From Chryseolinea sp. H1M3-3 (GTDB taxonomy: Bacteria; Bacteroidota; Bacteroidia; Cytophagales; Cyclobacteriaceae), in assembly GCF_029360725.1 (NCBI RefSeq), contig NZ_JARKMY010000002.1, positions 496,001 to 560,000 on the forward strand: a DNA stretch of 64,000 nt, written 5' to 3'. Positions 3,506 to 21,979 of the stretch are shown in pieces. The first letter of the stretch is position 1. Each line of letters opens with the position of its first letter. The position numbers and the translations under genes were made by a program. A model generated the notes under the pieces. The model searched no databases, was not told where the DNA came from, and was given only the letters and a program-made list of their open reading frames with translations.

Positions 3506-3517
3506 GATAAAGTTGGT

Positions 3518-4034: not shown

Positions 4035-4042
4035 CGAACTTA
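4035..4042 (-). promoter_or_regulatory. Candidate -7 promoter box for osmC-usp
   Basis: The minus strand reads TAAGTTCG, one mismatch from the Bacteroidota -7 consensus TAnnTTTG. Its centre is 33 bp from the centre of the palindrome at 4065-4078, about the spacing between a class II CRP/FNR site and the -10 box. This would put the transcript start about 15 bp before the osmC ATG. It is a prediction by eye. Confidence 0.4.
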
Positions 4043-4064: not shown

Positions 4065-4078
4065 ATGACCTTTATCAT
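4065..4078. promoter_or_regulatory. FNR/CRP-type palindrome upstream of osmC-usp
   Basis: ATGAC-CTTT-ATCAT matches TGAY-N4-RTCA exactly. This is the half-site and spacing of FNR (TTGAT-N4-ATCAA) and close to CRP. It lies in the divergent region between osmC and the L,D-transpeptidase gene. A second, weaker copy, ATGAT-TGAC-CTCAT (one core mismatch), lies at 4087-4100 with its centre 22 bp away, so the two would face the same side of the helix. Three further exact copies lie at 16311, 20656 and 21966. Confidence 0.5.
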
Positions 4079-4173
4079 CTTTTAAAATGATTGACCTCAT
4101 AGAAAGGACGGCCGACGATGACTTGTTTTATAATTAATTTGGAACAGTTGAATAGGATAGAACTTTTGAGAGA

Positions 4174-5607
4174 ATGATTTTTAACGGAAGAAGCTTTTTT
4201 TTATGGTTCCTGCTTTTGGCTTCAATAGGATGCCAGCGCAAGATTAGTTCTACGATAGCTACAACGTATGCGGCACCCGTAGTTGAAATTACCATTGATC
4301 CCATTAAGATTCCTGATGATTACTCAAATTCGGCTTATCATGGGCTGCGTTTTGGAGCAGATGTATTCAAATTTTATGGCCAACGTTCATACGAGCCCTT
4401 TTGGTTGAAAAATAATATCAGAGCGATGCAGGCTGATTCCATGATTATGATAATCAGGTCAGCCAGGCGGTATGGCTTATTACCGCAACGCTATCACTTT
4501 AATGAGATACCAGAATTAATGCTGGAGCCCATGGACCGTAGTAAAATGTCAAGGCTTGATCTCTTGCTAACCGACGCATTTCTATCCATGGCCAACGATC
4601 TAAAAAGAGGACGCCTACGCAAAACGGGCGCGACAGCCGATAGTTTACAAATTGCCTTGCTCAAAGATTCTTTGCAGGCGGAAGATATTAGAAAAGCACT
4701 CGAAGCGCAGGAACCGGTTTATCAGGGATACACTGAACTAAAAAATGCCCTTAATAAGATGCTGGACACGCTTTCGCTAACGGACCAAAACCTCTTGTTA
4801 TATGGAGTGACAAATGATTCAATAGATAGCCATCGGAAAGTACAACGCATTGAAATTAACCTGGAGCGATGGCGCGCTGAAAAGGAACAACTGTCTGATA
4901 TTTATACATGGATCAACGTGCCTGCATTTATGTTTTATGCGTACGAGAATGACAACATGCTTATGGCTTCAAAGATCATCGTCGGGGCGCCGGCCACGCC
5001 CACACCCTTATTCAGCAGCAAAATTGATTGCTTTACCATATTTCCGTACTGGTACGTACCTCGAAAAATCGCGGTCGAAGAATATCTTCCGGTCGTCAGT
5101 AAAGACACGACCTTTATCACCCGAAACAATTTTGATGTGCTGGATCGGACCGGTAAGATTGTTCTTTTATCTTCCATCGACTGGAAACAATACAATAAAA
5201 GCAATTTCCCTTTTACATTCCGACAGCGCGAAGGGACTGAGAACTCGCTAGGGGTCATAAAATTTGTTTTTGATAACCCTTATGCAGTGTTTCTTCATGA
5301 CACGAATTCAAAACGCTTATTTAGAAACAACGTACGCGCATATAGCCACGGTTGTATACGGTTAGAAAAAGCGGTAGAATTTGCGCACTACCTGATTGGA
5401 GGGGGCAGGACAAAAATCTCCGCTGAAGCCTTAAATAAATATTTAGGTCAGGAGAAACGGGTTACCATTAGCTTGACACAACCTGTACCTATTCACATAC
5501 GATATTTTACATGCGATGTCAGGAATGGTGAACTACAATTTTATAAGGATATATATAAGAAAGACAATGCACTGATTAAAACCCTATATAGCCAAAGCGT
5601 TTTCTGA
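4174..5607 (+). CDS. L,D-transpeptidase, YcbB-like
   Basis: This 477-residue envelope enzyme is predicted to form 3-3 cross-links in peptidoglycan or attach proteins to it. The N-terminus (FLWFLLLASIGC) looks like a lipoprotein signal with the lipid cysteine at about residue 20. A helical region of the YcbB scaffold type follows (about 50-230). The YkuD catalytic domain runs from about 240 to 420 and carries the active-site motif YSHGCIRL, with the nucleophile at C394 and its histidine at H392. The order and length fit the YcbB (LdtD) type rather than short ErfK enzymes, although I see no clear peptidoglycan-binding repeat. It starts a same-strand run with a DUF4136 lipoprotein, a PNPOx-like protein and a Na/Pi transporter. 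Confidence 0.88.
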   Translation: MIFNGRSFFLWFLLLASIGCQRKISSTIATTYAAPVVEITIDPIKIPDDYSNSAYHGLRFGADVFKFYGQRSYEPFWLKNNIRAMQADSMIMIIRSARRYGLLPQRYHFNEIPELMLEPMDRSKMSRLDLLLTDAFLSMANDLKRGRLRKTGATADSLQIALLKDSLQAEDIRKALEAQEPVYQGYTELKNALNKMLDTLSLTDQNLLLYGVTNDSIDSHRKVQRIEINLERWRAEKEQLSDIYTWINVPAFMFYAYENDNMLMASKIIVGAPATPTPLFSSKIDCFTIFPYWYVPRKIAVEEYLPVVSKDTTFITRNNFDVLDRTGKIVLLSSIDWKQYNKSNFPFTFRQREGTENSLGVIKFVFDNPYAVFLHDTNSKRLFRNNVRAYSHGCIRLEKAVEFAHYLIGGGRTKISAEALNKYLGQEKRVTISLTQPVPIHIRYFTCDVRNGELQFYKDIYKKDNALIKTLYSQSVF

Positions 5608-5639
5608 AACTCAGCACGTCAATACTTACTTATTAGCAT

Positions 5640-6173
5640 ATGAAAAAAAATATATTAAATCTTCTTCTGTTACTGATACTCGCGTCGTGCAGTGAAAAAA
5701 TTCGCGTTTATACAGACACAGATTCAACGCGTGACATCCGTACGTTCTCGGCATATAGGTGGGATGAAGTTAAAAATCTGGAGACTGCGAATAATCCCAT
5801 CTATTACAATGAACTAAATGATAAACGTATCAAAACGGCAGTAAATAACGAGCTTCAAAACAGAGGATATAAACTGGAAGACGGAGAGTCTCAATTGATC
5901 GCCCATTATCACATCGTGATCAACAGCGAAACCGTTAGCAGAGACATGACAACTTTTTATCACGGCGCACGATGGCTGGAAACCGATAGAAATAGCTACA
6001 CGCTTCGCGAGGGAACGCTTATTGTTGATTTGATGGATAGCAAGACGAACGACTTGATTTGGCGCGGCTATGCAATTAGTGTTCTTGATGAATTTCGACC
6101 TGACCTTTCAGAAAAGATGATTCAGGAAGCGATCACTAAAATTTTCCTTAAATTTCCTCAATCCGGTAATTAG
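5640..6173 (+). CDS. DUF4136 family lipoprotein
   Basis: This 177-residue predicted lipoprotein has a clean signal (MKKNILNLLLLLILASC) with the lipid cysteine at residue 17. The mature part starts with the sequence type usual for DUF4136: a TFSAYRWDE strand, a helix with NDKRIKTAVNNELQNRGY, then QLIAHYHIVI, and near the end GTLIVDLMDSKTNDLIWRGYA. Members of this family are outer-membrane or periplasmic and have no known enzymatic role. It lies 32 bp after the L,D-transpeptidase gene on the same strand, so an envelope role in the same operon is a fair inference. Nothing odd is seen in length or composition. Confidence 0.85.
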   Translation: MKKNILNLLLLLILASCSEKIRVYTDTDSTRDIRTFSAYRWDEVKNLETANNPIYYNELNDKRIKTAVNNELQNRGYKLEDGESQLIAHYHIVINSETVSRDMTTFYHGARWLETDRNSYTLREGTLIVDLMDSKTNDLIWRGYAISVLDEFRPDLSEKMIQEAITKIFLKFPQSGN

Positions 6174-6217
6174 TCAGGAATCTGTAATCTAAACACTAAC
6201 ATTAAAAAAATAGAATC

Positions 6218-6673
6218 ATGCTAGGAGTACTTACACCAGATCAATGTAAGCATGTTTTGAAGAGCGAGCTCATTGGACGAATCGGTTGTTATGCCGCTGG
6301 CAGGATCTACGTTGTTCCTATAACCTACGTTTATATGGATAACTATATTTATGCCCATTCCCAGGAAGGACTTAAGGTTCGCATGATGCGTAAGAATCCT
6401 AAAATTTGTTTTGAAGTAGAAAGCCGGGATAGCATGCGAAATTGGAGATCTGTAATTATCTGGGGTAAGTATGAAGAGTTGAAAACGCTGACTGAACAGA
6501 AGAAGGCGATGAAGATTTTAAATGATAGACTCCTTCCTTTTACGTTAAGTGAATCACTCAAGACCAGGGAAAATATGGAGCCTCCTTATCGCGTGGAAAA
6601 GGAACGCAAACCCGTCGTTTACCGGATTTCGGTGGATGAGGTTACAGGAAGATTCGAGAATAGTAGGGTCTGA
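6218..6673 (+). CDS. Pyridoxamine 5'-phosphate oxidase-like flavin protein
   Basis: This 151-residue protein has the split-barrel fold of the PNPOx-like/NimA group, which usually binds FMN or F420-type cofactors. Typical stretches are the N-terminal LKSELIGRIGCYAAGRIYVVPITYVYMDNYIYAHSQ, where the small-residue/strand pattern leads into the flavin-binding barrel, and KNPKICFEVESRD followed by a WRSVIIWGKYEEL strand. I cannot tell its substrate. It sits between a lipoprotein and a Na/Pi transporter in a same-strand run of stress and envelope genes. PNPOx-like proteins often appear in hypoxia or dormancy regulons, which fits the neighbourhood, but that is context and not proof. Confidence 0.85.
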   Translation: MLGVLTPDQCKHVLKSELIGRIGCYAAGRIYVVPITYVYMDNYIYAHSQEGLKVRMMRKNPKICFEVESRDSMRNWRSVIIWGKYEELKTLTEQKKAMKILNDRLLPFTLSESLKTRENMEPPYRVEKERKPVVYRISVDEVTGRFENSRV

Positions 6674-6722
6674 TAGTGGTTAACGATCGGCCTCAAAAAA
6701 ATCATTTTAAAGGTTAGACCTA

Positions 6723-8378
6723 ATGGACACCTGGAAGTTTATCGCGGGTCTGGGGTTGTTTCTTTATGGAATGACCGTCATGGAACGGGTGCTCAAAAAT
6801 CTGTCTGGTAGATCATTCAAATTATTTCTAAGAAAATATACACAAAGCTTGCCGAAGGCAATCGTCGGTGGTGCCTTAATAACAGGATTGGTGCAAAGCA
6901 GTTCAGTTGTATCGCTGCTTGTACTTGCATTTGTAGAAGCCGGCACCATCACTTTTAGAAATGCGTTAGGTGTAATTCTCGGTTCCAACGTTGGCACTAC
7001 ACTCACGAGCTGGATCGTTGCTACAATAGGTTTTAAGCTGGACATTGAAAGTTATTCATTGCCAATCGTTGGGATTTCAGCAATCGCCATGTTTTTTTCA
7101 AGCGATCAAAAAAGCATTTACAATATTTTTCGATTGTGTTTCTCTTTCGGCATCTTGTTCTTAGGGTTGGCGTTTATGAAAGGCTCGGCTGAGAGCTTTG
7201 TAAGTGATATTGACTTGATGACCTATAGTCGCTATGGTACGTGGATTTTTGTGTTGATAGGATTTGCTGTTACTGTTTTGATTCAAGCCAGTTCTGCAAC
7301 GGTAGCAATCACGCTCACAGCATTGTATACTGGAGCTATAAATTTCCCGATGGCGGCGGCTGTGGTAATCGGATCAGAACTGGGCACAACTATCAAAGTG
7401 GTCATGGCCGGGCTGGGAGGTACTGCAGACAAGAAAAGAGTGGCCTGGGGAAACTTTACATTTAATTTTGTTACCTGTGTCGTGGTATTTGTTTTTTTAC
7501 CCTGGCTGATCACTTTCATCCGGGATGTGGTTAACATCAAGGACCCGTTGATCGGGCTCGTCTTTTTGCAAACTACGATGAACCTCTTATCCATCTTGCT
7601 TTTTGTTCCTTTTATCAATGTATTCGCAAATTGGTTGTCTCGACGATTTGCTGATACTGCAGAGGATAAGGCGTCCTTTATAGGCGCTAACCTTCCCGTT
7701 GTGCCGGAACTTGCTGTGGACGCTATGCTTCATGAAGGCAATAACCTGTTGAAAAAGACGCTGGAGTTTTTAGAACGACTGTTGCAGCTCAACGACAGGA
7801 ACGCCGAAAGACGATTTTTGGGAGGGCTCAGCAAACCGTCCGATACGGTAAATACGATCTATTCGAAATTAAAACAAACGGAGGGAAGTATACTTGAGTA
7901 CTATACGAGACTTCAGACTTCAGAACTTAACAAAGAACAATATAACCAGCTTAACCAATACATCACCACCACCCGCTATTGCATCCGGGCGGCCAAAGCG
8001 ATGAAGGATATCCATCATAATTTGAAAGACTTTCAAGCGACAGCAAATGACACTTTGCATATGCAATATCAGGACCTTCAGAAGGATTGGATGGAATTTG
8101 ATTCGATGTTCCAGAGTTTAATGCGTATGGAAGACTCGAAACGTTTATTTGAAGAACTCACCCTGCTCATGAGACGAGCATTCCATAACCATCAACGCAG
8201 CAGTGGAGAGATTCTCGAGGCTCTTCATAAAAAAGCTTTGCATGAGCTGGAGGTGTCAACGTTAATGAACGTCCATCACGAAGTTCTTTCTGTAAAAAAA
8301 TCATTGCTGCGAGCCCTGGCGCATCTCAGATTAAACCCAGCTCAATCAGATGAATTTGAGTTTTTGCCAGAAAGTTAA
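6723..8378 (+). CDS. Na/Pi cotransporter family protein with C-terminal PhoU-like domain
   Basis: This 551-residue membrane protein has two Na/Pi (PF02690-type) repeats: the first contains GLVQSSSVVSLLVLAF and the second VLIQASSATVAITLTAL. The paired Q-S/A-S-S signatures are the family hallmark. Seven to nine hydrophobic segments end near residue 310. The remaining part, to 551, is a helical PhoU-like cytoplasmic domain with heptad-like leucines and charges. Proteins of the NptA/YjbB type move phosphate with sodium; some export it. No phosphate operon genes are next to it, so its role in phosphate balance is inferred from family alone. It ends 52 bp before the convergent L,D-transpeptidase gene. 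Confidence 0.9.
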   Translation: MDTWKFIAGLGLFLYGMTVMERVLKNLSGRSFKLFLRKYTQSLPKAIVGGALITGLVQSSSVVSLLVLAFVEAGTITFRNALGVILGSNVGTTLTSWIVATIGFKLDIESYSLPIVGISAIAMFFSSDQKSIYNIFRLCFSFGILFLGLAFMKGSAESFVSDIDLMTYSRYGTWIFVLIGFAVTVLIQASSATVAITLTALYTGAINFPMAAAVVIGSELGTTIKVVMAGLGGTADKKRVAWGNFTFNFVTCVVVFVFLPWLITFIRDVVNIKDPLIGLVFLQTTMNLLSILLFVPFINVFANWLSRRFADTAEDKASFIGANLPVVPELAVDAMLHEGNNLLKKTLEFLERLLQLNDRNAERRFLGGLSKPSDTVNTIYSKLKQTEGSILEYYTRLQTSELNKEQYNQLNQYITTTRYCIRAAKAMKDIHHNLKDFQATANDTLHMQYQDLQKDWMEFDSMFQSLMRMEDSKRLFEELTLLMRRAFHNHQRSSGEILEALHKKALHELEVSTLMNVHHEVLSVKKSLLRALAHLRLNPAQSDEFEFLPES

Positions 8379-8430
8379 AATCCCTGGACGACCCGCTTTC
8401 AAGAATTAGAAATCAAGGAAATACTAACGA

Positions 8431-9165
8431 TCAAAGACTCATGCTCAAACCGTCCTTGAACTTGGTACGTGAAACATAAGTGGGGTCCGGATAAAAAATA
8501 AACAGGCAAGTACCTTCAGCAATTTCCGTGATTATTTTCTTATGCAACGCCATCGGAATAGCGGGACATCCAAAGCTTCTTCCCAACCTTCCATATTGCT
8601 TTATATACGATTCGCTTACATACGTCGCACCGTGCATAACAATGGCACGTGCTTCAGCCTTATCGTTAATTCCATTCTCAACACCATGTAGCTTTAATGA
8701 AATACCATGCTTTCCGATATACGTTTTTCCTGTAACGTAAAACCCTAGGCTGCTTTGATTCGAATTAGGAGTATTAGAAAAATTTCGGGCAAAAACATCG
8801 CCGGTGTTGCGTCCATGGGCGGTGAGGGTATGAAACAATATTTTTTTATGAACAAGATCAATTACCCACAAACGTTTTTCATTAGCTGATCTTCTGAAAT
8901 CAATTAATGTGAGAACTCCCTTTGTTGAAAGTTTTTTTGCTTTTTCAAGTAGCTGGTACCCTGTTAATGCGCGATTAAATAAATCGTATGGAGGAAGTTC
9001 ATGTTCATTTGGATCGATGGCTTGGTAGAGGGTTGCGGATTCAGTGATCAAATTAAAATCAGGCGCAGTAAACGCACGACTTTGAAAGGATGATAAAGTT
9101 ATAGCAATAGATAGGGTCACAGCGTAAATGATTGTTAGCGCTGTCTTTCTCACAGGTGGCTGCAT
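8431..9165 (-). CDS. Murein L,D-transpeptidase catalytic domain protein (PF13645 type)
   Basis: This 244-residue secreted enzyme is of the YkuD-like murein L,D-transpeptidase catalytic family, distinct from the YcbB-like protein at 4174. The signal peptide starts MQPPVRKTALTIIYAVTLSI. The catalytic domain contains FRRSANEKRLWVIDL, the histidine in IVMHGATYVS and the nucleophile in RSFGCPAIP (about C200). A longer reading from an ATG at 9357 would add 64 residues that bury the signal peptide and look non-coding, so I chose 9165. An isolated gene, divergent from the LolA-like operon at 9400. Activity is inferred from the conserved H and C. Confidence 0.85.
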   Translation of the reverse strand: MQPPVRKTALTIIYAVTLSIAITLSSFQSRAFTAPDFNLITESATLYQAIDPNEHELPPYDLFNRALTGYQLLEKAKKLSTKGVLTLIDFRRSANEKRLWVIDLVHKKILFHTLTAHGRNTGDVFARNFSNTPNSNQSSLGFYVTGKTYIGKHGISLKLHGVENGINDKAEARAIVMHGATYVSESYIKQYGRLGRSFGCPAIPMALHKKIITEIAEGTCLFIFYPDPTYVSRTKFKDGLSMSL

Positions 9166-9399
9166 GGTGGTGATGGATGGTTTCTTGCATGACAACTTCA
9201 CAGCTCTAAAAGTTCCTGGCAGGTGTCCGGATGTACCAAAATCAGGGAATTCAAATAAATCGATGCTAAAATTATTTTCGAACGCTTTAGGCAACAGTTG
9301 ACTTAAGTCATTTAATCTATTGATGATTCTCATACCCAATTCAACTCGGTTTGACAATCTTTAAAAATGAATTTATCACGGTTGTAAACTTATTGTCTG

Positions 9400-10146
9400 A
9401 TGTTCTTCAGGATTGGTTTATCATTATTGTTGCTGGTGGGTATGAGTCCCATATGTGCTCAGGATGCATTGGAAATTGTAAAAAAAGCCGATGAAAAAAT
9501 GCGGGGTAAGACATCACAGGCAGAGATGCTTTTTAGGACAATCCGACCCACATGGTCGCGCGAAATGTCTGTAAAAGCCTGGCTGAAGGGTAATGACTAT
9601 GCCGTAATATTAGTTCTATCTCCTATTAAAGATAAAGGTGTTACATTTTTAAAACGAAAGAAAGAAGTATGGAATTGGATGCCAACGTTAGAACGTTCCA
9701 TAAAACTTCCGCCATCCATGATGACGCAGTCGTGGATGGGTACCGACTTTACCAACGACGATTTGGTAAAGGAATCTTCAATCGTAAACGATTACAATCA
9801 TAGCATAATCGGTGATACGACGGTTCAGGGAAGACCTTGCCATAAAATACAGATGTTGCCCAAACCGGAAGCAGCCGTTGTGTGGGGCAAATTAATTGTA
9901 TGCATTGATAAAAAAGATTTTATAGAAATGCACTCCCGCTTCTATGATGAAGATGGTATTTTAATAAATACGCTTACTGCCTTGGAAATTAAATTAATGG
10001 ATGGAAGACTTATTCCGACGCGACTTGAAATGGTGCCTGCTGATAAAAAAAATCAAAAGACTGAAATAATATATAACAAGATACTATTCGATCGCCCTAT
10101 TGAGGATAGTTTCTTTACGATAGAAAAGATGCGAAATCTCAAGTGA
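9400..10146 (+). CDS. LolA-like outer-membrane lipoprotein-sorting family protein
   Basis: This 248-residue secreted protein has a signal peptide ending near residue 21 (GMSPICAQ). The mature part has the half-barrel pattern of the LolA-like PF17131 group: ALEIVKKADEKMRGK, then SREMSVKAWLKG, KRKKEVWNWMPTLERSIKLPPSMMTQSWMGTDFTNDD and a C-terminal strand set ending FFTIEKMRNL. The WNWMP...SWMGTDFTNDDL block is characteristic. It opens a tight five-gene run with two FtsX-type permeases, a LolD-like ATPase and a beta-barrel protein. It probably carries or senses a lipid or lipidated cargo in the periplasm. It is not the canonical LolA, and the cargo is unknown. Confidence 0.85.
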   Translation: MFFRIGLSLLLLVGMSPICAQDALEIVKKADEKMRGKTSQAEMLFRTIRPTWSREMSVKAWLKGNDYAVILVLSPIKDKGVTFLKRKKEVWNWMPTLERSIKLPPSMMTQSWMGTDFTNDDLVKESSIVNDYNHSIIGDTTVQGRPCHKIQMLPKPEAAVVWGKLIVCIDKKDFIEMHSRFYDEDGILINTLTALEIKLMDGRLIPTRLEMVPADKKNQKTEIIYNKILFDRPIEDSFFTIEKMRNLK

Positions 10147-10147
10147 T

Positions 10148-11371: not shown

Positions 11372-11373
11372 GC

Positions 11374-12594: not shown

Positions 12595-12618
12595 AAATAA
12601 CGAGTACTAAATATACTT

Positions 12619-14519: not shown

Positions 14520-14554
14520 AATCAGGATTTTTCCGGTAAGGTTTAAATATAAGT

Positions 14555-14971
14555 TTAGGACTGAATTGGATCAGACACAGGATTTGTAATATTGGCCAGT
14601 ACCCTTTGCATCGCATTCTTTACTACTTGTGAGAACGTCAACAACGCATCATTGGCTGCCGGCTTCATCAGTTCTTCAGGATCACCAATTGAAATTTCTA
14701 CTTGACCGTCTTCATGTTGTTGTACTACAATATTGCAAGGTAGAAATACACCCATTTTGTCATCCATGGTTAGTGCTTTGTAGGCAAATTGCGGATTGCA
14801 GGCTCCCAGGATTGTGTAGGCACGGAAGTCCTGATTAATTTTTTTCTTCAATGTATCTTTTACATCAATTTGTGTTAAGATCCCGAAGCCTTCCTTCTTT
14901 AATTCCTCAGTCACTTTTTGAATGGTTTCTTCAAAGGAAAGCTTTACTTTTTTATTTAAGCTGTATGTCAT
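14555..14971 (-). CDS. DUF302 domain protein
   Basis: This 138-residue small soluble protein belongs to the DUF302 family. The typical pattern is YSLNKKVKLSFEETIQKVTEELKKEGFGILTQIDVKDTLKKK, then YTILGACNPQFAYKAL and GVFLPCNIVVQQHEDGQVEISI, with cysteines in the ACNP and PCN motifs. DUF302 proteins have no proven enzyme activity; a role with metals or redox is often guessed from the cysteines. The ATG at 14971 is preferred to a TTG three codons upstream. It lies 24 bp after the universal stress gene on the same strand and is probably the third gene of a TerB-like/USP/DUF302 operon. Confidence 0.9.
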   Translation of the reverse strand: MTYSLNKKVKLSFEETIQKVTEELKKEGFGILTQIDVKDTLKKKINQDFRAYTILGACNPQFAYKALTMDDKMGVFLPCNIVVQQHEDGQVEISIGDPEELMKPAANDALLTFSQVVKNAMQRVLANITNPVSDPIQS

Positions 14972-14995
14972 AATAAACAATGTTTTGACGGACGT

Positions 14996-15832
14996 TTATA
15001 GAACACCAGAGGTTTCCATTTTGTGAACATGAAAAACCAATAATGGAATGTCGCTGTGATAAACCAGGTCTTTCGTAATACTTTTGCCAAATATTTTCTG
15101 AAATATGTTTTGCTTACGGGCAGAAAGTACCAACAGATCGGCGCCTGTGAAGTCACAAAAATTTTTAAGTCCCTGAGATGTATCTTTATTGTAATAGACC
15201 CGATAGGAGATTCGGGGGTAATCAACTGTTTTAAATATTTCATTCGAAATAAACTCAATCATACTTTCTTCTGACTGTGCTTCCTCATTTTCATCGAATA
15301 CATGCACGACAATAATTTCTGAATTAAAAGGTGTTGCGATAGGCACAAGTCGAAGTAGAGCATCCAAATCGCTGTCGTAGTAGTCTGTCGCAAAAACAAT
15401 TTTCTCTGGTTTCTTAAAGATGGTTGTCTCCGGAATAACGATTACCGGGCAGGTCGATTTGTTGATGAGTGACCGTGAATTGCTCCCGAAAAAGAACCGG
15501 CTGGTTTTACCGAGCCCCTGAATTCCCATAATAACGAGACCAATGTTTAGCGCTTCAATGGTCTTATTTACCTCTGAGATCATATCGCCCACTTGAACCG
15601 AATGCGTTATCCGGCAATTTGTACACCGTGACTTTAGCTCTGCCTTAATTTTGATCAGTGATTTGGTTGCTTCATCTTCAATATCATGAATCACAATAGG
15701 ATCATTCAGGATGGGGGTCAACACGTGAATCAAATGGATACTGGAGCCGGGCTTTTCATTTGCTAACGTCACGGCATACATGGCAGCATGAAAAGCATTG
15801 TCCGAAAAATCGGTGGGGACGAGAAGTTTCAT
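14996..15832 (-). CDS. Universal stress protein, tandem UspA domains
   Basis: This 278-residue protein has two UspA domains. The first starts KLLVPTDFSDNAFHAAMYAV and has an intact nucleotide motif G-2x-G-9x-G-S (GIQGLGKTSRFFFGS). The second starts KIVFATDYYDSD and has lost the glycines (SARKQNIFQKIFGKS). This half-active arrangement is the same as in the USP at 2663, so both may bind one ATP per chain. It begins 1 bp after the TerB-like gene stop and is followed by DUF302. The operon is read away from the FNR-type palindrome at 16311. Confidence 0.92.
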   Translation of the reverse strand: MKLLVPTDFSDNAFHAAMYAVTLANEKPGSSIHLIHVLTPILNDPIVIHDIEDEATKSLIKIKAELKSRCTNCRITHSVQVGDMISEVNKTIEALNIGLVIMGIQGLGKTSRFFFGSNSRSLINKSTCPVIVIPETTIFKKPEKIVFATDYYDSDLDALLRLVPIATPFNSEIIVVHVFDENEEAQSEESMIEFISNEIFKTVDYPRISYRVYYNKDTSQGLKNFCDFTGADLLVLSARKQNIFQKIFGKSITKDLVYHSDIPLLVFHVHKMETSGVL

Positions 15833-15833
15833 A

Positions 15834-16235
15834 TTATCTGATTAAATGCTGCAGCTTAGTAATAAATTTTTGTTCGTTCTTGTTTCGATGTGCGAAAGAA
15901 TCTGCAATCGCCGATGCGGTTTTTGAAATTTTTCGTTTCAGGTCTTTTGAAAATGCAGCGGAGTGCAATTGATAATAGTCGGAGAAAACCGTGAACGCAT
16001 CATCGGGCGACGTCCCCTCATTTAATAAGTAGTCGAAAGCAATGGAAATGTAATGCGCCGCGTCTGTGCCGTATTTATCGATAGAATCTTCCAGTGGCAG
16101 CCATTCTTTTGCGACAACTGTTTTTAATTTTTGAATTTCCTCTGGACGAACTTTCTCGTCAGAGGCAGCAATGGCGTAGAACAGGTATCCGAGGTTCTCA
16201 TAAATTTTCTCGTAGTTAATTTCCGTAGCAATCAT
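15834..16235 (-). CDS. Hypothetical TerB-like helical protein, paralogue B
   Basis: This 133-residue all-helical protein is a paralogue of the gene at 1027-1440: shared positions run through YENLGYLFYAIA, the P-EE-QKLK...EW block and a Y-LH-A-F pattern in the second half. Charge is high and there is no signal peptide. The family is not recognised with certainty; a TerB-like fold is my guess. It is the first gene of an operon with a tandem USP and DUF302, whereas its paralogue sits next to ppsA. The fact that both copies stand beside energy-stress genes suggests a shared function. Confidence 0.75.
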   Translation of the reverse strand: MIATEINYEKIYENLGYLFYAIAASDEKVRPEEIQKLKTVVAKEWLPLEDSIDKYGTDAAHYISIAFDYLLNEGTSPDDAFTVFSDYYQLHSAAFSKDLKRKISKTASAIADSFAHRNKNEQKFITKLQHLIR

Positions 16236-16310
16236 AAAATGTTTGTTAAGGTTTGTATCAAAACTATCGGCTTGATTATTATCTAAAAATGATAGCCGTA
16301 ACTTTTAAAT

Positions 16311-16324
16311 ATGATTTAAGTCAT
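16311..16324. promoter_or_regulatory. FNR/CRP-type palindrome between divergent TerB-like operon and csbD-like gene
   Basis: ATGAT-TTAA-GTCAT matches TGAY-N4-RTCA exactly and is close to a perfect 14-bp palindrome. It is centred about 82 bp before the TerB-like ATG (minus) and about 103 bp before the csbD-like ATG (plus). I see no convincing TAnnTTTG box at the class II distance here, so which gene it controls is open. Confidence 0.5.
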
Positions 16325-16420
16325 GATAGACACTGATGATCTTCATGGTACAAATCTATCGGCTATCCTAGCTTCATGTCACTATCGATATAATAATCAA
16401 TCTATTTAAACACTGTCGCT

Positions 16421-16606
16421 ATGAATAAGTTAGAATTATTTGGAAACTGGAATATAATAAAGGGAAAACTTAAAGAACGTTTTGGGGTTCTTACAGATAA
16501 TGACCTGCTTTATATCAAAGGCAAAGAAGAAGAACTGCTCGGAAGAATTCAACGCAGACTTGGTAAGACGAAACGTGAACTCTTAGAGCTCATTGAACAG
16601 ATTTAA
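16421..16606 (+). CDS. CsbD-like stress protein
   Basis: This 61-residue small hydrophilic protein is of the CsbD/YjbJ type. The pattern NWNIIKGKLKERFGVLTDNDLLYIKGKEEELLGRIQRRLGKTKRELLELI matches the family in length and in the W-x-x-x-K-G-K-x-K-x-x-(F/W)-G-x-L-T-D-(N/D)-D core. Members are among the most abundant stress-induced proteins in many bacteria, but their molecular role is unknown. It lies 97 bp downstream of the palindrome at 16311 and 38 bp before a helical protein gene on the same strand. Confidence 0.9.
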   Translation: MNKLELFGNWNIIKGKLKERFGVLTDNDLLYIKGKEEELLGRIQRRLGKTKRELLELIEQI

Positions 16607-16644
16607 ATCATTGACAATTTTTAAATAAGACCTAAATAAACTTT

Positions 16645-17091: not shown

Positions 17092-17145
17092 AATGTATTG
17101 AGATAATTTCTCGAACGTTAAAACTTTGGGAAATAAAAATTGCTT

Positions 17146-17646: not shown

Positions 17647-18640
17647 AATGCAGATAAAAAATCTTTCTGAAAGTGGATTTTATCTTGGTCAACCACTTCA
17701 TGCAGAAATAGAAGAAACACATATCTCATGGGTGTTATTTACCAAACAATATGCATTTAAAATAAAGAAGCCAGTTAGACTTTCTTTTCTGGATTTTTCT
17801 ACGTTGTCGAAGCGAAAGAAATATTGTTACCAGGAGCTAAAACTCAATCAGCGTTTTTCACCGATATACTTTGACGTCCTTCCTGTGTATAAGGATAATG
17901 ATGCCTGGCAGATAGGAGACGGACACGGTAAAGTTGTTGATTACGCTGTCTGGATGAAACGCCTGCTGTTTTCAAAACGAATGGATAAACTACTTATGCA
18001 AAATAAGGTAGAGAAGCGTAACGTTGTTTCTCTCGCAAAAGTAATTTCGAAATTTCATTCAAGTGCTGAAGTGATTAGTACGACTTTTAAAATAGGGAGC
18101 GCAAGTAAAAGCTTTAATGACATCCGCACAATTATAGGGTCTACAAAGAATCACCTTGGAACTGAATACGCTGCCATTATTCAACGATCGATTGAATGGA
18201 GTAATTTGTTTTTGAAAATACACGCGCCCCGTATGAAGGCGCGGATAGCGGAAGGGTTCACGCGCGATGTTCATGGCGATCTGCACAGCGGAAATATATT
18301 TTTGTATAAGGAACCAGTTCTATTTGACTGTATTGAATTTAATGATCAGTATAGATGCATCGACGTATTGAATGAAATTGCATTTTTGTGTATGGACCTG
18401 GAAGCTTATGGAAAGGGAAGCCTCGCCCATATTTTTAAACACGCTTATCAGCAGTACTCACACGCTTTTCAGGAGGAGGAGGACGAAAGAATATTTCAAT
18501 ATTATAAATGCTTTCGGGCAAACGTTCGGGCTAAAGTGCATGCGCTAGCCGCATTGCAGGAACACGATGATGAACAATATCAGCATCATGTGTCTGCTTG
18601 GAAAAATTATTTGCAACTAATGCAGCGTTACCTAAAGTAA
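17639..18640 (+). CDS. Aminoglycoside phosphotransferase-like kinase (COG2187)
   Basis: This 333-residue protein has a kinase fold of the COG2187 type. The catalytic loop is VHGDLHSGNIFL and the metal-binding segment FDCIEFN replaces DFG, followed by RCIDVLNEIAFLCMDLEAYG, which is typical of the group. The AFKIKKPVRLSFLDFSTLSKRKKYCYQELKLNQR segment near the N-terminus holds the conserved lysine and the EL-LN-R pattern. The ATG at 17639 overlaps the AAA kinase stop by 8 bp; a TTG at 17618 is less likely. The stop codon abuts the stop of the convergent hpf gene with no spacer. The substrate is unknown; drug resistance should not be assumed. Confidence 0.85.
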   Translation: MNEMQIKNLSESGFYLGQPLHAEIEETHISWVLFTKQYAFKIKKPVRLSFLDFSTLSKRKKYCYQELKLNQRFSPIYFDVLPVYKDNDAWQIGDGHGKVVDYAVWMKRLLFSKRMDKLLMQNKVEKRNVVSLAKVISKFHSSAEVISTTFKIGSASKSFNDIRTIIGSTKNHLGTEYAAIIQRSIEWSNLFLKIHAPRMKARIAEGFTRDVHGDLHSGNIFLYKEPVLFDCIEFNDQYRCIDVLNEIAFLCMDLEAYGKGSLAHIFKHAYQQYSHAFQEEEDERIFQYYKCFRANVRAKVHALAALQEHDDEQYQHHVSAWKNYLQLMQRYLK

Positions 18641-18961
18641 TTATTCCTTTAGTTCGGGAACATCGCCACCTTTATATTCTTTCTTAATATCGGTTATCTG
18701 GCGTTTCAAAGCCGTGACAACTTTGCTAGTAGCATCCTCGAATGAATGGCTTTGCCGGGCAGCGAACAAATCGTTTCCCCGTATTGCCAGTTTAATTTCG
18801 CATATCTTGTTTTCGCGAGTATCCGATTTGTCTATTTTCAGGGTAACATTACCTTCTAAAATATTATCGTTGAGCTGCTCAATTTTTTGCAGCTTATCTG
18901 TGACAAAATCTAAAAGTTTTTGATCGGCTTTGAATCCAGGAGTTTGAATATTGATTTTCAT
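18641..18961 (-). CDS. hpf: Ribosome hibernation promoting factor, short form
   Basis: This 106-residue protein is of the HPF/RaiA (YfiA) family, which binds the 30S decoding centre and silences ribosomes in slow growth. The family pattern is MKINIQTPGFKADQKLLDFVTDKLQKIEQL, then EGNVTLKIDKSD, KICEIKLAIRGNDLFAARQSHSFEDATSKVVTALKRQI. It lacks the C-terminal extension of long HPF, so it belongs to the short class. It is the last gene of a likely operon with the M50 protease and DUF2267 genes, all on the minus strand and all downstream of the palindrome at 20656. This fits a starvation or oxygen-limitation role. Confidence 0.9.
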   Translation of the reverse strand: MKINIQTPGFKADQKLLDFVTDKLQKIEQLNDNILEGNVTLKIDKSDTRENKICEIKLAIRGNDLFAARQSHSFEDATSKVVTALKRQITDIKKEYKGGDVPELKE

Positions 18962-19005
18962 TTCTAGTTGTTTTTAGGTTTTAGTTGCTTTTAATTGTTT
19001 GCTAC

Positions 19006-19455
19006 TTAAGAAGGAATCCAGGTGTTGAAAACTGCTTTTATTTCTTTCGGCAATGTTCCGAATGCTTGTTCCATTTCTGAAGGCGATACAAAGTCGGACA
19101 AAGTAATGATGACCGCCCGTAAATCTTGCAAAACATCGTCCATTGTACTAAAGTCACGCCAGGCGGCTTTGCCGTCTTCTTTAAGAATTTCATTTGCAAA
19201 TTCCTCCAACGTCTTGATCCTTTCATGTGGCTTGTGAAGTTTCCATCCATCCACATAAATAGATTTTAGCGCCATCGGAAGCTGCGCCAATATTTGCATG
19301 GACTCTTCTACCGTCAGGTATTTCCTTAAAACATGGAATGTGCTTCTTAAAATTCGGAAGGCACCATCGAGATCGTGGTTATTTCCCATGTTTTTTGCGA
19401 GCTTTCCAAGGAACTCATTTCCTTTGGACGCATATTTATCAAACTCGGTATTCAT
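19006..19455 (-). CDS. DUF2267 family protein
   Basis: This 149-residue helical protein contains the DUF2267 pattern twice: FLGKLAKNMGNNHDLDGAFRILRSTFHVLRKYLTVEESMQILAQLPMALKSIYVDGW, and a second, shorter copy ending VSPSEMEQAFGTLPKEIKAVFNTW. The family, related to winged-helix-like folds in some annotations, has no known function but often occurs next to USP, Hsp20 and M50/CBS proteins. It lies 12 bp after the M50 gene on the same strand and 44 bp before hpf. Confidence 0.88.
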   Translation of the reverse strand: MNTEFDKYASKGNEFLGKLAKNMGNNHDLDGAFRILRSTFHVLRKYLTVEESMQILAQLPMALKSIYVDGWKLHKPHERIKTLEEFANEILKEDGKAAWRDFSTMDDVLQDLRAVIITLSDFVSPSEMEQAFGTLPKEIKAVFNTWIPS

Positions 19456-19467
19456 AAATTTGGTGTT

Positions 19468-20586
19468 TTAGTTATTGTTTTTATTGGTAAGTGCTTTTTG
19501 AATTTGAAGAAATTCATCGATGTTTTCTTTGTCGAGATAACCTTGAAGGGCTCCATCAGCACCTACCAGGGCAATTTCTTTTTTTTCTTTCATTATTTTC
19601 CCTAGGGCTTCATCCAGGGGCATTTCTGGAGAAACGTAGAGCAGTTCTTTATTTTTGACATTTTCTACTGGCGTGTTTTCATTTTGCTCACGTAAGGCCT
19701 CGTAGATTTCTTCCCTGCTTAAGCTTCCGGTAGGCATCCCGTGATCCGTTACAATAAAGGTTTTGTTTTCGTCGCTTAACAATTTGTTTGCTGCCTCTTT
19801 TATTGTGATGTCATTTTCAACAAACGGAATTGTTTGAATCATCGCATCGTGTACCTTGAAATTTTTTAACAATGATTTGATTTCAGAAAAGTTTGCTTCT
19901 GATTTGGCTCCTGCAAAAATCAGTACCCCTATAAATATCAGAAAAGGATTGTATACAATTCCATAGAGAATAAATCCAATAGCAATGAGCTGACCCGTAC
20001 TTGCTGCTACACGGGTAGCTTTCAAATGACCGATCCGAAAGGACAACAACGCTCGGAATACACGTCCGCCATCCATGGGGAAGGAGGGTATCAGGTTAAA
20101 AAGTGCCAGTAAGAAATTTACCTGTATTAAGGAGGGAAGAAAACTCGCCGAACTGATAATGTCTAAATCTGAAACCGTCGCGCTACTTGTTACGGTCAAA
20201 ACAAGAAACAGTAGCCCGGCTAATATAAAGTTGACCATAGGCCCGGCGATAGCGATTAATAACTCTTCTTTCGGCTTCTCTGGAATTGACTCCAGTTGTG
20301 CAAGACCACCAATAGGTAACAATACAATGCTGTGAGTTTTAATATTGAAATATTTGGCAGTAAGTGCATGGCCAAATTCATGAAGCGTAATGCAGGCAAA
20401 AACGGCTAGCAAAAATATTACAGTCCAAACAATTTGTATCGGGTTAGTTTGCAGACTTAGGTGCGAGAAAATGACCCAGCCGATCAAAATGAAAAATGTC
20501 CAATGGACAAAGAGATTTATACCCATGATGCTTCCCAATCGCAAGGAATATTTCACACGGATTAAATTAGTGTTCGTGGAAGGCAT
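19468..20586 (-). CDS. Site-2-type M50 metalloprotease with CBS domains
   Basis: This 372-residue membrane protein belongs to the S2P/M50 intramembrane protease family. The zinc motif HEFGH is at residues 69-73, and the third ligand D172 lies in PSFPMDGGRVFRALL. Five to six hydrophobic segments occupy residues 20-240. The cytoplasmic C-terminus (about 245-370) has two CBS-like halves, the first with MIQTIPFVENDITIKEAANKLLSDENKTFIVTDHG, which would sense adenine nucleotides. It is similar in layout to the CBS-bearing S2P-like proteases (e.g. Rv2625c of M. tuberculosis). First gene of an operon with DUF2267 and hpf. Confidence 0.9.
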   Translation of the reverse strand: MPSTNTNLIRVKYSLRLGSIMGINLFVHWTFFILIGWVIFSHLSLQTNPIQIVWTVIFLLAVFACITLHEFGHALTAKYFNIKTHSIVLLPIGGLAQLESIPEKPKEELLIAIAGPMVNFILAGLLFLVLTVTSSATVSDLDIISSASFLPSLIQVNFLLALFNLIPSFPMDGGRVFRALLSFRIGHLKATRVAASTGQLIAIGFILYGIVYNPFLIFIGVLIFAGAKSEANFSEIKSLLKNFKVHDAMIQTIPFVENDITIKEAANKLLSDENKTFIVTDHGMPTGSLSREEIYEALREQNENTPVENVKNKELLYVSPEMPLDEALGKIMKEKKEIALVGADGALQGYLDKENIDEFLQIQKALTNKNNN

Positions 20587-20641
20587 GAATAATAGTTTTA
20601 AACAAACCTAATACGGCGGTAAGCGGTAAACTATGAGAACA

Positions 20642-20660
20642 GTCAGATGGCCATCCTGAC
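20642..20660. repeat. Near-perfect 19-bp palindrome upstream of the M50 protease gene
   Basis: GTCAGATGGCCATCCTGAC is palindromic (GTCAG...CTGAC around a central GGCC). It overlaps the FNR-type palindrome at 20656-20669 by sharing the CTGAC arm. It lies about 56-74 bp upstream of the M50 gene ATG, so it could be a second operator or a partner site. Confidence 0.35.
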
Positions 20661-20669
20661 AGAAGTCAT
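20656..20669. promoter_or_regulatory. FNR/CRP-type palindrome upstream of the M50-DUF2267-hpf operon
   Basis: CTGAC-AGAA-GTCAT matches TGAY-N4-RTCA exactly. Its centre is about 76 bp before the M50 gene ATG and 33 bp from a TAGTTTAC sequence on the minus strand (20633-20626) that partly matches TAnnTTTG. The spacing repeats that seen at osmC. Confidence 0.45.
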
Positions 20670-20716
20670 AAAATATTTGAAGAAACACTGGACCTGATAG
20701 ATGCGTTAGAAAAATA

Positions 20717-21220
20717 TTAAGAAGTTGAAGACGCTTCTTTTTGATGTAATTCTTCGAACGCAATTTTTGTCAGAATGGCATTGGTCTCTTTTTCCCATTC
20801 AAGAATTTCGTGAAGCAAGTCGCTAACGGTATCGAGATTCAATTTAATAGCAAAGGCAAGTGCCGCATTATACCCTGCCATCTTATAGTGGTTAATGCTT
20901 TGGAAACACGCCAATAGCACCACTTGACGAAGGGAATCTGATGCAGCATGTTCAAGCATGTAGTGAGTGTCTTTCAGCATCGTATCGATAACCTTGTTTT
21001 TCCTTTTGAAAGGTTCAACCAGTAGATAGCCGAAGGTTCGTTTAAGTTTAGTTCTTTTTTCAGCAGCCTGTTCGCCATACTTGTTAATGATATCTTTCAA
21101 TACATTAAGTGTCACGCCTTCACTGCATGCCGGGATAGCATGTTGGAGTTTTTTTTCCGCATCGTATAAGCCTTCAAGCTGGAATGCTAGTACTTCATTC
21201 AGGTTGCTGAGTCTTTTCAT
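20717..21220 (-). CDS. DUF892 ferritin-like protein (YciE/YciF type)
   Basis: This 167-residue helical protein is of the DUF892 family, with a ferritin-like four-helix bundle. The start LNEVLAFQLEGLYDAEKKLQHAIPACSEG matches the family (LYDAEKQL...), with further helices carrying EQAAEKRTKLKRTFG and YMLEHAASDSLRQVVLLACFQSINHYKMAGYNAAL; the family's usual H..E..Y metal-site residues are recognisable. Members are stress-induced and of unknown function. It lies downstream of the Hsp20 gene on the same strand but behind the hairpin at 21261-21322, so it may have its own promoter. Confidence 0.85.
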   Translation of the reverse strand: MKRLSNLNEVLAFQLEGLYDAEKKLQHAIPACSEGVTLNVLKDIINKYGEQAAEKRTKLKRTFGYLLVEPFKRKNKVIDTMLKDTHYMLEHAASDSLRQVVLLACFQSINHYKMAGYNAALAFAIKLNLDTVSDLLHEILEWEKETNAILTKIAFEELHQKEASSTS

Positions 21221-21260
21221 CTTAAAATTTTTAAGGTGTAGCGCAAGGTTGAAGTGAATG

Positions 21261-21322
21261 CAAAGAAATAGGTGCTTCTCTTTTATTTCTGCCCAATAGA
21301 AAAAGAGGTACCTATTTCTTTG
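21261..21322. terminator. Long inverted repeat / terminator behind hsp20
   Basis: The arms CAAAGAAATAGGT (21261-21273) and its exact complement (21310-21322) enclose further imperfect pairing around CTCTTTT/AAAAGAG. It lies 21 bp past the hsp20 stop on the minus strand and before the DUF892 gene. It is probably a transcription terminator or mRNA-stabilising hairpin; a regular poly-U tail is not clear. Confidence 0.55.
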
Positions 21323-21342
21323 TTAAGGTCTATGCGGTCCAC

Positions 21343-21801
21343 TTATGACACATTAATTTTCTTAACTGTTTTAGCTGTACTTTCTTTGGCTTTTGGCACT
21401 GTTACTTTAAGTATCCCGTTGTCATATTTCGCATCGATGTTATTCTCCTTTACATCATCTGGTAACGTAAAAGAGCGGGTGAACGAATTGAATGAATATT
21501 CCTTTCGTGAATAACCATTATCCTCACTTTTTTCTTCTTTTTGCTCTTCCTTTTCTGCGCTGATACTCAAGGTGTGATTATCAACTTCAATGTTAAAATC
21601 TTTTCTTTCGAGTCCGGGTGCTGCAACTTCCAATATGTATTCTTTTGGAGTTTCGCGTATGTTTACCGAGGGCACATTCACGCCTAGTCTTGAGCGTGTA
21701 AGATCCGATTCAATATCAAAAAAATCGCGATCTAATAGCGTTGAGGGCCAGTCTGACAGAAATCTGGACAAACCAGTCGTAGGTCTTAATGATAAATTCA
21801 T
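21343..21801 (-). CDS. Hsp20 / alpha-crystallin family small heat-shock protein
   Basis: This 152-residue ATP-independent holdase has a short N-terminal arm with FLSDWPSTLLDRDFFD and an alpha-crystallin domain at about 45-140. The signature runs through VPSVNIRETPKEYILEVAAPGLERKDFNIEVDNHTLSISAEKEEQ and the A-x-x-x-n-G-(I/V)-L motif (AKYDNGILKVTVPKA). The C-terminus ends KKINVS, where I-x-V probably serves as the oligomerisation anchor. It lies in a divergent pair with the alcohol dehydrogenase gene across a 256-bp intergenic region that contains the FNR-type site at 21966. Confidence 0.95.
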   Translation of the reverse strand: MNLSLRPTTGLSRFLSDWPSTLLDRDFFDIESDLTRSRLGVNVPSVNIRETPKEYILEVAAPGLERKDFNIEVDNHTLSISAEKEEQKEEKSEDNGYSRKEYSFNSFTRSFTLPDDVKENNIDAKYDNGILKVTVPKAKESTAKTVKKINVS

Positions 21802-21965
21802 AGTCTTAAAATTTAAATGTTTATTTTTTTACTGTGCTGCTAAAATAGAGTGGTTGTGGTAACCGTGTCTATGCAATTTGTTAGAAGAAAAAATGATTTT
21901 TAGCAGTGCCGGTTTTGCAGGTTCAAATGGCTTCCAGGACATAGCTAATGAGTACAAATAACAAG

Positions 21966-21979
21966 ATGATGTTCATCAC
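21966..21979. promoter_or_regulatory. FNR/CRP-type palindrome upstream of alcohol dehydrogenase
   Basis: ATGAT-GTTC-ATCAC has the full FNR core TGAT-N4-ATCA. Its centre is about 85 bp before the ATG of the dehydrogenase gene and 28 bp before a TACATTTC box at 21997-22004. This is the best FNR-like match in the window. A weaker copy with one core mismatch is at 21893-21906 toward hsp20. Confidence 0.55.

Follow-up and report, generated by a model that had tools for sequence, protein, structure and literature searches.

Predicted tandem operators of a receiver-Crp/Fnr regulator at the edge of a respiration and stress gene island in Chryseolinea sp. H1M3-3

Palindromes between stress genes

We examined a stretch of 64,000 nucleotides, hereafter the window, from the genome of Chryseolinea sp. 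H1M3-3 (NCBI RefSeq assembly GCF_029360725.1, contig NZ_JARKMY010000002.1, positions 496,001 to 560,000), in which the palindrome TGAY-N4-RTCA recurs between stress genes. In the contig coordinates used below, the window spans C12:496001-560000 in a genome of 6.88 Mb, and it covers the right end of a site-rich island at about 437-518 kb of C12. The motif sites are predicted to be real control sites at the edge of a respiration and stress block of about 80 kb, and the genes of this island are probably switched on together by a regulator that combines a receiver domain with a Crp/Fnr activator (REC-Crp). The part of the island that lies within the window encodes osmC-usp, TerB-like/usp/DUF302, csbD, M50-DUF2267-hpf, DUF892, hsp20 and an alcohol dehydrogenase (ADH). 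Open reading frames (ORFs) were called mechanically, as the longest frame of at least 90 amino acids, and hence some promoters are masked as coding.

The palindrome has 10 matches in the window compared with 5.42 +/- 2.20 in shuffled sequences, and 5 of 100 shuffles reach 10; taken alone, this count is marginal. Five of the sites are found between genes, all in the first 22 kb (4066, 9299, 16312, 20657 and 21967), and the remaining five are inside coding sequence. With 8.8% of the window non-coding, at least five intergenic sites out of ten are expected with a P of about 0.0009 when the site at 9299 is counted as intergenic, and placement rather than count carries the evidence of the window, which by itself is suggestive. 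The site at 9299-9310 lies inside a TTG-extended ORF (8431-9357, L,D-transpeptidase) and is intergenic if this gene begins at the ATG at about 9165. The initial annotation had listed four palindromes; all four are present, as 12-mers at 4066, 16312, 20657 and 21967 (its coordinates included one extra flanking base on each side), and it had overlooked the fifth at 9299-9310. The sites, the promoter boxes placed near position -7 and the adjoining genes are as follows, in window coordinates.

4066..4077, minus strand: promoter-proximal palindrome of the osmC-usp operator, read towards osmC as TGATAAAGGTCA; composite scan (site plus -7 box) C12:500035-500077
4088..4099, minus strand: distal partner at 22 bp, 7 of 8 consensus positions
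4035..4042, minus strand: -7 box of osmC-usp, TAAGTTCG, 5 of 6 positions, at the conserved spacing
2663..4015, minus strand: predicted targets osmC (3518-4015, Pfam OsmC) and usp (2663-3505, Pfam Usp), an operon by position only
16312..16323, no strand assigned: middle one of three palindromes in a tandem operator, between TerB-like/usp/DUF302 (minus) and csbD (plus)
16290..16301, minus strand: 22-bp partner, proximal for TerB-like/usp/DUF302, 7 of 8; composite scan C12:512259-512301
16259..16266, minus strand: -7 box TAGTTTTG for TerB-like/usp/DUF302, 6 of 6
14555..16235, minus strand: TerB-like gene (15834-16235, named in the initial annotation), usp (14996-15832, Pfam Usp) and DUF302 gene (14555-14980, Pfam DUF302)
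16334..16345, plus strand: 22-bp partner, proximal for csbD, 7 of 8
16369-16376, plus strand: -7-like box TAGCTTCA of csbD, 4 of 6
16421..16606, plus strand: csbD (Pfam CsbD), possible divergent target
20657..20668, minus strand: distal palindrome of the M50 operon operator, TGACTTCTGTCA, exact
20634..20645, minus strand: its proximal partner TGACTGTTCTCA, 23 bp away, 7 of 8; composite scan C12:516603-516645
20603..20610, minus strand: -7 box of the M50 operon, TAGGTTTG, 6 of 6
18641..20586, minus strand: M50-CBS protease (19468-20586), DUF2267 protein (19006-19455) and hpf-type S30AE protein (18641-18961), named from Pfam
9299..9310, plus strand: fifth site, towards a LolA-like gene at 9400
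9321-9332, plus strand: 22-bp partner of the fifth site, 7 of 8
9356-9363, plus strand: weak -7 box AATCTTTA of the fifth site, 4 of 6
21967..21978, no strand assigned: exact palindrome between hsp20 (minus) and ADH (plus), with neither a 22-bp partner nor a fitting -7 box; doubtful
1..968, plus strand: C-terminal part of a phosphoenolpyruvate (PEP)-utilising enzyme, probably PEP synthase, full gene C12:494536-496968

On these features osmC-usp, TerB-usp and M50-hpf are supported as predicted targets, and the ADH/hsp20 site is a doubtful one.

A discrete island of intergenic sites

The window was extended by 80 kb leftward and 20 kb rightward, and the resulting contiguous 164 kb contain 25 intergenic TGAY-N4-RTCA sites (1.73/kb) and 18 coding ones (0.12/kb), with the site at 9299 counted here as coding. 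In the same 164 kb, each of ten control patterns, built with a different spacer or with permuted half-sites, matches 0-2 times between genes. In 20 evenly spaced 20-kb stretches, taken as the genome background, 42.3 kb of intergenic DNA hold 2 sites (0.047/kb), and nine other patterns have 0-9 matches there. The intergenic sites span C12:437559 to 517967; there are none at C12 416-436 kb, none in the remaining window and none onward to 580 kb, and they therefore define a discrete island of about 80 kb.

Left of the window, the island genes were named from Pfam and NCBIfam (PEP synthase from its C-terminal domain only). The left end carries a usp gene, a PAS histidine kinase (C12:437601-438860) and the REC-cNMP-HTH_Crp regulator REC-Crp (C12:438857-439918), followed by a DsbD_2 protein, fixH, ccoG, a ccoP-like gene (FixP_N), ccoNO and a second PAS kinase. 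Further genes encode the iron-sulfur (Fe-S) repair protein RIC, ribonucleotide reductase, a standalone Crp/Fnr protein, a nitric oxide (NO) reductase with a NorB cytochrome-like domain, globin, fasciclin, cytochrome c, hemN and a heavy-metal P-type ATPase that appears ccoI-like by eye. The remainder consists of more usp genes, a beta-CASP nuclease, VIT1, a flavodoxin-like reductase and PEP synthase, whose upstream region, left of the window, contains three sites and a 6/6 -7 box.

Searched over the whole genome with one mismatch, the composite pattern has 49 places, including those at osmC, TerB-like and M50, and its reversed control has 6. The FNR-like pattern TTGAY-N4-RTCAA was considered as the true motif and rejected: it has 62 genome sites compared with 14 for its reversed control, but the island consensus disfavors that T. 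TGAY-N6-RTCA, a spacer at which no site is expected, gives 692 matches compared with 233 for its reversed control, so the reversed-pattern control reads about three-fold low for TGA/TCA palindromes. Because it underestimates chance in this way, we put weight on shifted-spacing controls and on the comparison of genomes with and without REC-Crp. We also searched TGATTTAAATCA in 118 genomes of the same order and found it too rare for ranking genomes.

Anatomy of the operator

Operator statistics were drawn from 80 named REC-Crp loci, the best 80 of 574, the closest of which belong to Chryseolinea, Ohtaekwangia and Chryseosolibacter, among metagenome-assembled genomes. These loci contain 201 intergenic sites, and nine control patterns have 4-14 each. 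The base preceding the half-site (n = 402) is A in 196 cases, C in 152, T in 41 and G in 13. Since A or C is found in 348 of the 402, the consensus is [AC]TGAY-N4-RTCA[GT], which in these loci is neither the FNR box TTGAT-N4-ATCAA nor a palindrome of the CRP half-site TGTGA.

The sites are frequently paired. In 117 of the 201 sites, a further palindrome matching at 6 or more of 8 positions is found at a distance of exactly 22 bp, while control offsets of 20, 21, 23, 24, 25, 30 and 33 bp give 8, 5, 14, 1, 13, 4 and 3. The two-palindrome pattern, searched in the 80 loci with one mismatch, is found 81 times at a 10-bp gap, 11 times at 11 bp and 0-5 times at twelve other gaps between 4 and 17 bp; the corresponding numbers in the island of Chryseolinea sp. 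H1M3-3 are 12, 2 and 0. There, 17 of 25 sites have a 22-bp partner, and likewise 17 of 25 have a -7 box at the exact spacing described next.

A box that matches TAnnTTTG, named as the Bacteroidetes promoter box (PMC5682007), at 5 or more of its 6 positions starts 35 bp after the start of the proximal palindrome, that is, 23 bp beyond its end. It is present at exactly this spacing in 118 of all 201 sites, whereas shifts of -8 to +8 give 1-15. Calculated back from fractions, it accompanies 33 of 44 single-direction sites that have a downstream partner and 18 of 25 that have an upstream partner; it is found in 30% of 61 sites with no partner, against a background of 1%. The initial annotation had placed a TAnnTTTG-like box 28-33 bp from the palindromes; the conserved distance is instead 23 bp from the end of the proximal palindrome or 45 bp from that of the distal one. 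With the box placed around -7, the proximal palindrome is centered at about -41 and the distal one at about -63 from predicted starts. In class II promoters, the site of CRP or FNR is centered near -41.5. The geometry, with its fixed phase to the core promoter, thus looks like that of a class II activator with a second dimer in tandem two turns upstream.

The four palindromes listed in the initial annotation could in principle be chance matches, as the marginal count in the window alone might suggest. We consider this scarcely credible, because for osmC-usp, TerB-usp and M50-hpf it is contradicted by the tandem arrangement and the -7 spacing, and because controls in the island, in the genome stretches, at the 80 loci and upstream of the M50 homologs described below are all far lower. 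The single site between ADH and hsp20 may nevertheless be such a chance match.

The REC-Crp protein and the neighboring kinase

REC-Crp belongs to the Crp/Fnr superfamily and contains three domains (PF00072, 2e-28; PF00027, 9e-19; PF13545, 3e-16). We counted residues in 81 sequences, its own and those of the 80 loci. The receiver residues E8, D9, D52, T82 and K104, comprising the acidic pair, the phospho-Asp, the Thr and the Lys, are invariant in 81/81, as are the E, I and R of the recognition helix. The cAMP pocket of CRP contains a phosphate-binding Arg in an RSA-type motif; in 80 of the 81 REC-Crp sequences, the residue aligned with it by eye is E or D. An Fe-S Cys cluster is absent from them as well, the only column with Cys in at least half of the 81 being residue 51, in the receiver. 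Input probably reaches REC-Crp by phosphorylation. No PDB entry among the best 60 of 250 matches spans both the receiver and the Crp parts, and no NCBIfam model among the best 25 of 108 passes its cut-off for REC-Crp.

An alternative is an ordinary FNR/Anr-type regulon, in which an Fe-S FNR orthologue acts on TTGAT-like boxes; the initial annotation had noted that the target families match the Anr/FNR regulon of Pseudomonas aeruginosa. The half-site core TGAT and the spacer are the same as those of FNR, and the targets are FNR/Anr-like. However, the box differs, with T before TGAY in only the 41 of 402 half-sites counted above, REC-Crp is devoid of the Cys cluster, and Ile replaces, in 81/81, what we take to be Ser212 in FNR numbering; the Fe-S check of the other Crp/Fnr proteins of the genome was made by reading their sequences. 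Such a regulon is very unlikely here.

A kinase gene lies immediately upstream of REC-Crp in 76 of the 80 loci, and the two are a putative two-component pair. Of 79 aligned kinases (77 REC-Crp neighbors and the two kinases of the island), 76 have no predicted membrane segment, and the column of the FixL proximal His is H in 75. The PAS domain of the kinase in Chryseolinea sp. H1M3-3 is most similar in PDB to an unspecified multi-sensor kinase (10jx, 1e-14), then to heme domains of FixL (7e-14) and of DosP, and heme binding by this domain is possible.

Which regulator acts on the island

The genome has eight HTH_Crp_2 matches at E <= 0.001, seven of them above the Pfam cut-off. None lies inside the window, as the initial annotation had said of Crp/Fnr genes, and two lie to the left of it, at distances of about 45 and 56 kb. 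Three of the eight proteins are REC-Crp (C12:439k, C16:50k and C12:805k). Intergenic site density around these three genes is 1.73, 1.58 and 1.22/kb, and around four standalone Crp genes it is 0 (C1:780k), 0 (C12:946k), 0.32 (C2:148k) and 0.94/kb (C2:186k); the regions at the second and third REC-Crp genes were chosen after genome-scan hits there and are longer than the standalone-Crp regions. In 13-14-kb stretches set beforehand the intergenic counts are 3 and 5 for REC-Crp and 0, 3, 1 and 1 for standalone Crp.

Around the second REC-Crp gene (C16:47908-77691), seven intergenic sites lie among apparent polysaccharide genes, with a sugar transferase, a nucleotidyltransferase and an export protein recognized by eye; a sister regulon is possible. 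Around the third (C12:765001-845000), twelve intergenic sites are found near genes that by eye encode usp, a short-chain dehydrogenase and sugar metabolism. Of the four sites near the standalone Crp gene at C2:186k, three have G before TGA, a CRP-like form, and the protein carries Arg (SREVISR) at what is presumably the R180 position of CRP, where REC-Crp proteins mostly have T, S, P or A. These three GTGAY sites (C2:183144-185772), two of which have a 6/6 -7 box at the same spacing, would belong to a separate CRP-type regulon with a different half-site.

Additionally, we compared 247 genomes of the same class, some of them incomplete, scoring the top 8 candidates per genome. REC-Crp (E <= 1e-60) is present in 122, about half. 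Tandems at 22 bp (one mismatch) total 854 in these 122 genomes (mean 7.0, 1.85/Mb) and 203 in the 125 genomes without REC-Crp (mean 1.6, 0.51/Mb); the reversed control, known to read low, gives 22 and 26. The chance rate estimated from shifted gaps, on few matches, is about 0.8/Mb in the 20 stretches of the Chryseolinea sp. H1M3-3 genome and about 1.1/Mb in the 80 loci, and therefore the total without REC-Crp is at chance level, as is perhaps half of the total with it. At least three tandems are found in 102 of 122 genomes with REC-Crp, compared with 32 of 125 without. The 247-genome comparison (Mann-Whitney) ignores phylogeny, which is mended only partly by a comparison within the 25 families holding both kinds of genome, where the median is higher with REC-Crp in 19, equal in 1 and lower in 5 (p 0.0005). 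Among the places listed for 15 genomes with REC-Crp, 29 of 76 tandems lie within 50 kb of a REC-Crp gene by hand count, or 18 of 62 when genome G388 is left aside. G388 and G286 have 53 and 37 tandem operators, respectively, and in G388 a single REC-Crp gene, on contig C56, has 11 of the 14 listed operators within 50 kb of it.

It is also conceivable that the island is controlled by the standalone Crp/Fnr protein Crp450 (C12:450021-450689, 222 aa), with REC-Crp controlling something else. The Crp450 gene is part of the island, the helix of the protein (VETVIR) closely resembles the one in REC-Crp, and in Fulvivirga (L157) a homolog lies in the same cluster with the motif upstream. However, only 27 of the 247 class genomes have it (E <= 1e-25), compared with 122 for REC-Crp, and it was rejected as a class-wide regulator on account of this rarity; the 12 genomes that contain Crp450 and lack REC-Crp have a mean of 1.8 tandems, like genomes lacking REC-Crp generally, and the two further REC-Crp genes of the genome have site-rich surroundings that contain no Crp450. 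We regard control of the island by Crp450 as unlikely.

Conservation of the predicted targets in relatives

Homologue counts leave out 7 weak M50 loci (L095-L101) and the loci of ADH paralogues (L113-L131). M50 homologs of the same GTDB family have a site within about 420 bp upstream in 15 of 22 cases, its own included, and 12 of these 15 sites are located between -63 and -105; control patterns reach at most 2 of 22. In the 14 examined, the -7 box of the M50 homologs has 3-6 of 6 positions. The motif lies within 250 bp upstream of 27/27 homologs of usp437, 21/27 of hemN and 22/36 of ccoNO, and genes of the cbb3 oxidase, hemN and usp are the most recurrent named neighbors other than regulators. 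In the intergenic region between usp and the kinase, 12 of 27 cases have a -7 box that fits the usp side, and 2 of 27 have one that fits the opposite side.

The initial annotation, which had proposed a Crp/Fnr-family regulon joining the stress operons and had made it depend on the motif recurring upstream of homologous operons, is thus partly borne out. It was right in kind: the regulon is strongly supported, the M50 homologs have the motif, and the core of the island has an oxygen/NO flavor (cbb3, hemN, NO reductase, Fe-S repair, globin). It was wrong on box type and spacing, and wrong in including the alcohol dehydrogenase, which departs from both the -7 spacing and the tandem rule; the candidate two-component regulator, encoded outside the window, was beyond its reach.

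Proposed mechanism

We propose, with a probability of roughly 0.75, that the sites are tandem operators of REC-Crp, a two-component Crp/Fnr activator driving a contiguous low-oxygen island. The sites, their spacing, their enrichment, the gene linkage and the co-occurrence were obtained by computation; binding by REC-Crp, its phosphorylation, activation, start positions and signal are what we infer from them. The cytoplasmic PAS histidine kinase would phosphorylate the adjoining REC-Crp. Phosphorylated REC-Crp dimers would then occupy two, sometimes three, palindromes 22 bp (two helical turns) apart, the nearer centered about 41 bp and the farther about 63 bp upstream of the start, and would work as a class II activator at promoters of the housekeeping sigma factor (-7 box TAnnTTTG). 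Left of the window, the activated genes would include those for the cbb3 oxidase and its fixGHI-type assembly, for NO reductase, Fe-S repair and PEP synthase, as well as hemN and several usp genes; inside the window, they would include osmC-usp, TerB-like/usp/DUF302 and M50-DUF2267-hpf.

The likeliest trigger, perceived through the FixL-like PAS domain, would be low oxygen, or possibly NO or a reduced state of respiration. The regulon and REC-Crp could be right and the signal another one (NO, quinone redox, starvation, or surface growth via the kinase). PAS domains bind many ligands, the island has NO reductase and Fe-S repair genes, and by eye the second REC-Crp region has polysaccharide genes. 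On the other side, the named non-regulator neighbors that recur most, together with usp, are the cbb3 genes and hemN, which make up the classic low-oxygen set, and the PAS matches in PDB that follow 10jx are heme domains of FixL and DosP. A signal other than oxygen is possible, though in our view the weaker choice.

Several observations weigh against the proposal. Most M50 sites of relatives have no 22-bp partner, and the ADH target is poorly conserved, with an exact site upstream of only 2 of 11 close homologs, its own included. Autoregulation of the kinase-REC-Crp operon was considered and is unsupported, the -7 box fitting the kinase side in only the 2 of 27 cases mentioned. The distal Arg column of FixL is R in only 35 of the 79 kinases, and PAS domains that bind no heme often have a His at the FixL position too. 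Single-site composites (site plus -7 box) are also present in genomes without detected REC-Crp, where exact matches number 247 over 125 genomes, or 0.63/Mb, compared with 1.22/Mb with REC-Crp; in all, exact matches occur in 199 of 247 genomes and the reversed control, which reads low, in 21 of 247 (hand count). The chance rate at shifted spacing is 0.05-0.36/Mb, and since both groups of genomes exceed it, other Crp/Fnr proteins probably share this promoter geometry. Four genomes without REC-Crp (G212, G246, G294 and G315) have 8-9 tandem operators, for which another user of the operator, missed genes and chance are all possible. Finally, Crp450 is encoded in the same island, where position cannot separate it from REC-Crp, and it is by location and co-occurrence that REC-Crp would be named the regulator.

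If REC-Crp does act in this way, the pathway would resemble FixL-FixJ-FixK with its last two steps fused in one protein. For the Bacteroidia as a whole, there is perhaps an even chance that such a FixJ-FixK fusion is a common oxygen- or NO-responsive regulator acting at tandem class II promoters, that it has independently built a DosR-like stress and dormancy regulon of usp, osmC, hpf, PEP synthase and M50 genes linked to cbb3, and that it has been copied within genomes for sister regulons (e.g. polysaccharide).

Other features of the region

A 606-aa protein (C12:451159-452979) that adjoins the NO reductase has no Pfam or NCBIfam match, and the motif lies upstream of its gene here and in 4 of 7 homologs. 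Two TerB-like proteins of about 135 aa (window 1027-1440 and 15834-16235), alike by eye and with no Pfam match, both adjoin stress genes. To the right of the island, an extracytoplasmic function (ECF)-type sigma factor gene (window 23427-23993) has a small ORF just downstream (23177-23440), and no exact intergenic motif occurs in its neighborhood.

Comparison with known systems

To our knowledge, the sensing of a fall in oxygen by aerobic soil and water Bacteroidota is poorly described. The operator rule deduced above (a 22-bp tandem palindrome with a -7 box at a fixed 23 bp) permits regulon prediction from sequence. Among published systems, the FixL-FixJ-FixK cascade drives fixNOQP/fixGHIS. 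The rhizobial hFixL-FxkR-FixK cascade also drives fixNOQP/fixGHIS, with a sensor kinase, a response regulator and a Crp/Fnr activator clustered with cbb3 genes and with palindromic boxes whose distance from the start hardly varies (PMC7888657); the kinase described here likewise has a FixL-like PAS domain. Unlike that cascade, which has a separate regulator and FixK, the receiver and the Crp/Fnr activator are here one protein, which leaves no transcriptional relay, the box is [AC]TGAY, often in tandem at 22 bp, and the targets include a large usp/stress set.

DosR/DevR of mycobacteria similarly places dormancy genes under two-component control; DevR has neighboring high- and low-affinity sites, its cooperative binding needs determinants outside the DNA-binding domain, and its start-proximal site overlaps the -35 element (PMC3029386). 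The output domain is NarL-type in DevR but HTH_Crp_2 here, and we claim no sequence kinship. In Streptomyces coelicolor, usp, alcohol dehydrogenase, pyruvate phosphate dikinase and nitrate reductase genes are clustered round the regulator of OsdR/OsdK, although OsdR is a DevR orthologue with another palindrome and another output domain in another phylum (PMC5069765). NmpRSTU of Myxococcus xanthus is a two-component system controlling usp, cbb3-associated genes and hemN with several palindromes per promoter, but its regulator is NtrC-like and acts at sigma-54 promoters (PMC11841059). The likenesses to OsdR, NmpR and the rhizobial cascade are likenesses in working rather than signs of kinship.

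HcpR, DNR and HcpR2, the last present in Bacteroides, recognize FNR-like palindromes with a 4-base spacer; their consensus sequences are TTGAC-N4-GTCAA, TTGAT-N4-ATCAA and GTAAC-N4-GTTAC, and the available part of the source gives only hcp as the HcpR2 regulon in most species named and mentions no receiver domain (PMC1274295). The word 'receiver' is likewise absent from the accessible part of a wastewater-microbiome study of Crp/Fnr regulators with Flavobacteriales and Saprospiraceae genomes (PMC8510549), and among the open-licence papers searched, titles and abstract openings yielded no receiver-Crp/Fnr regulator in Bacteroidota. REC-Crp would stand beside DevR/OsdR, the FixK cascades and NmpR as another unrelated type of regulator converging on usp and high-affinity-oxidase genes, and it is this convergence of unrelated regulator types that makes the shared logic of the set testable.

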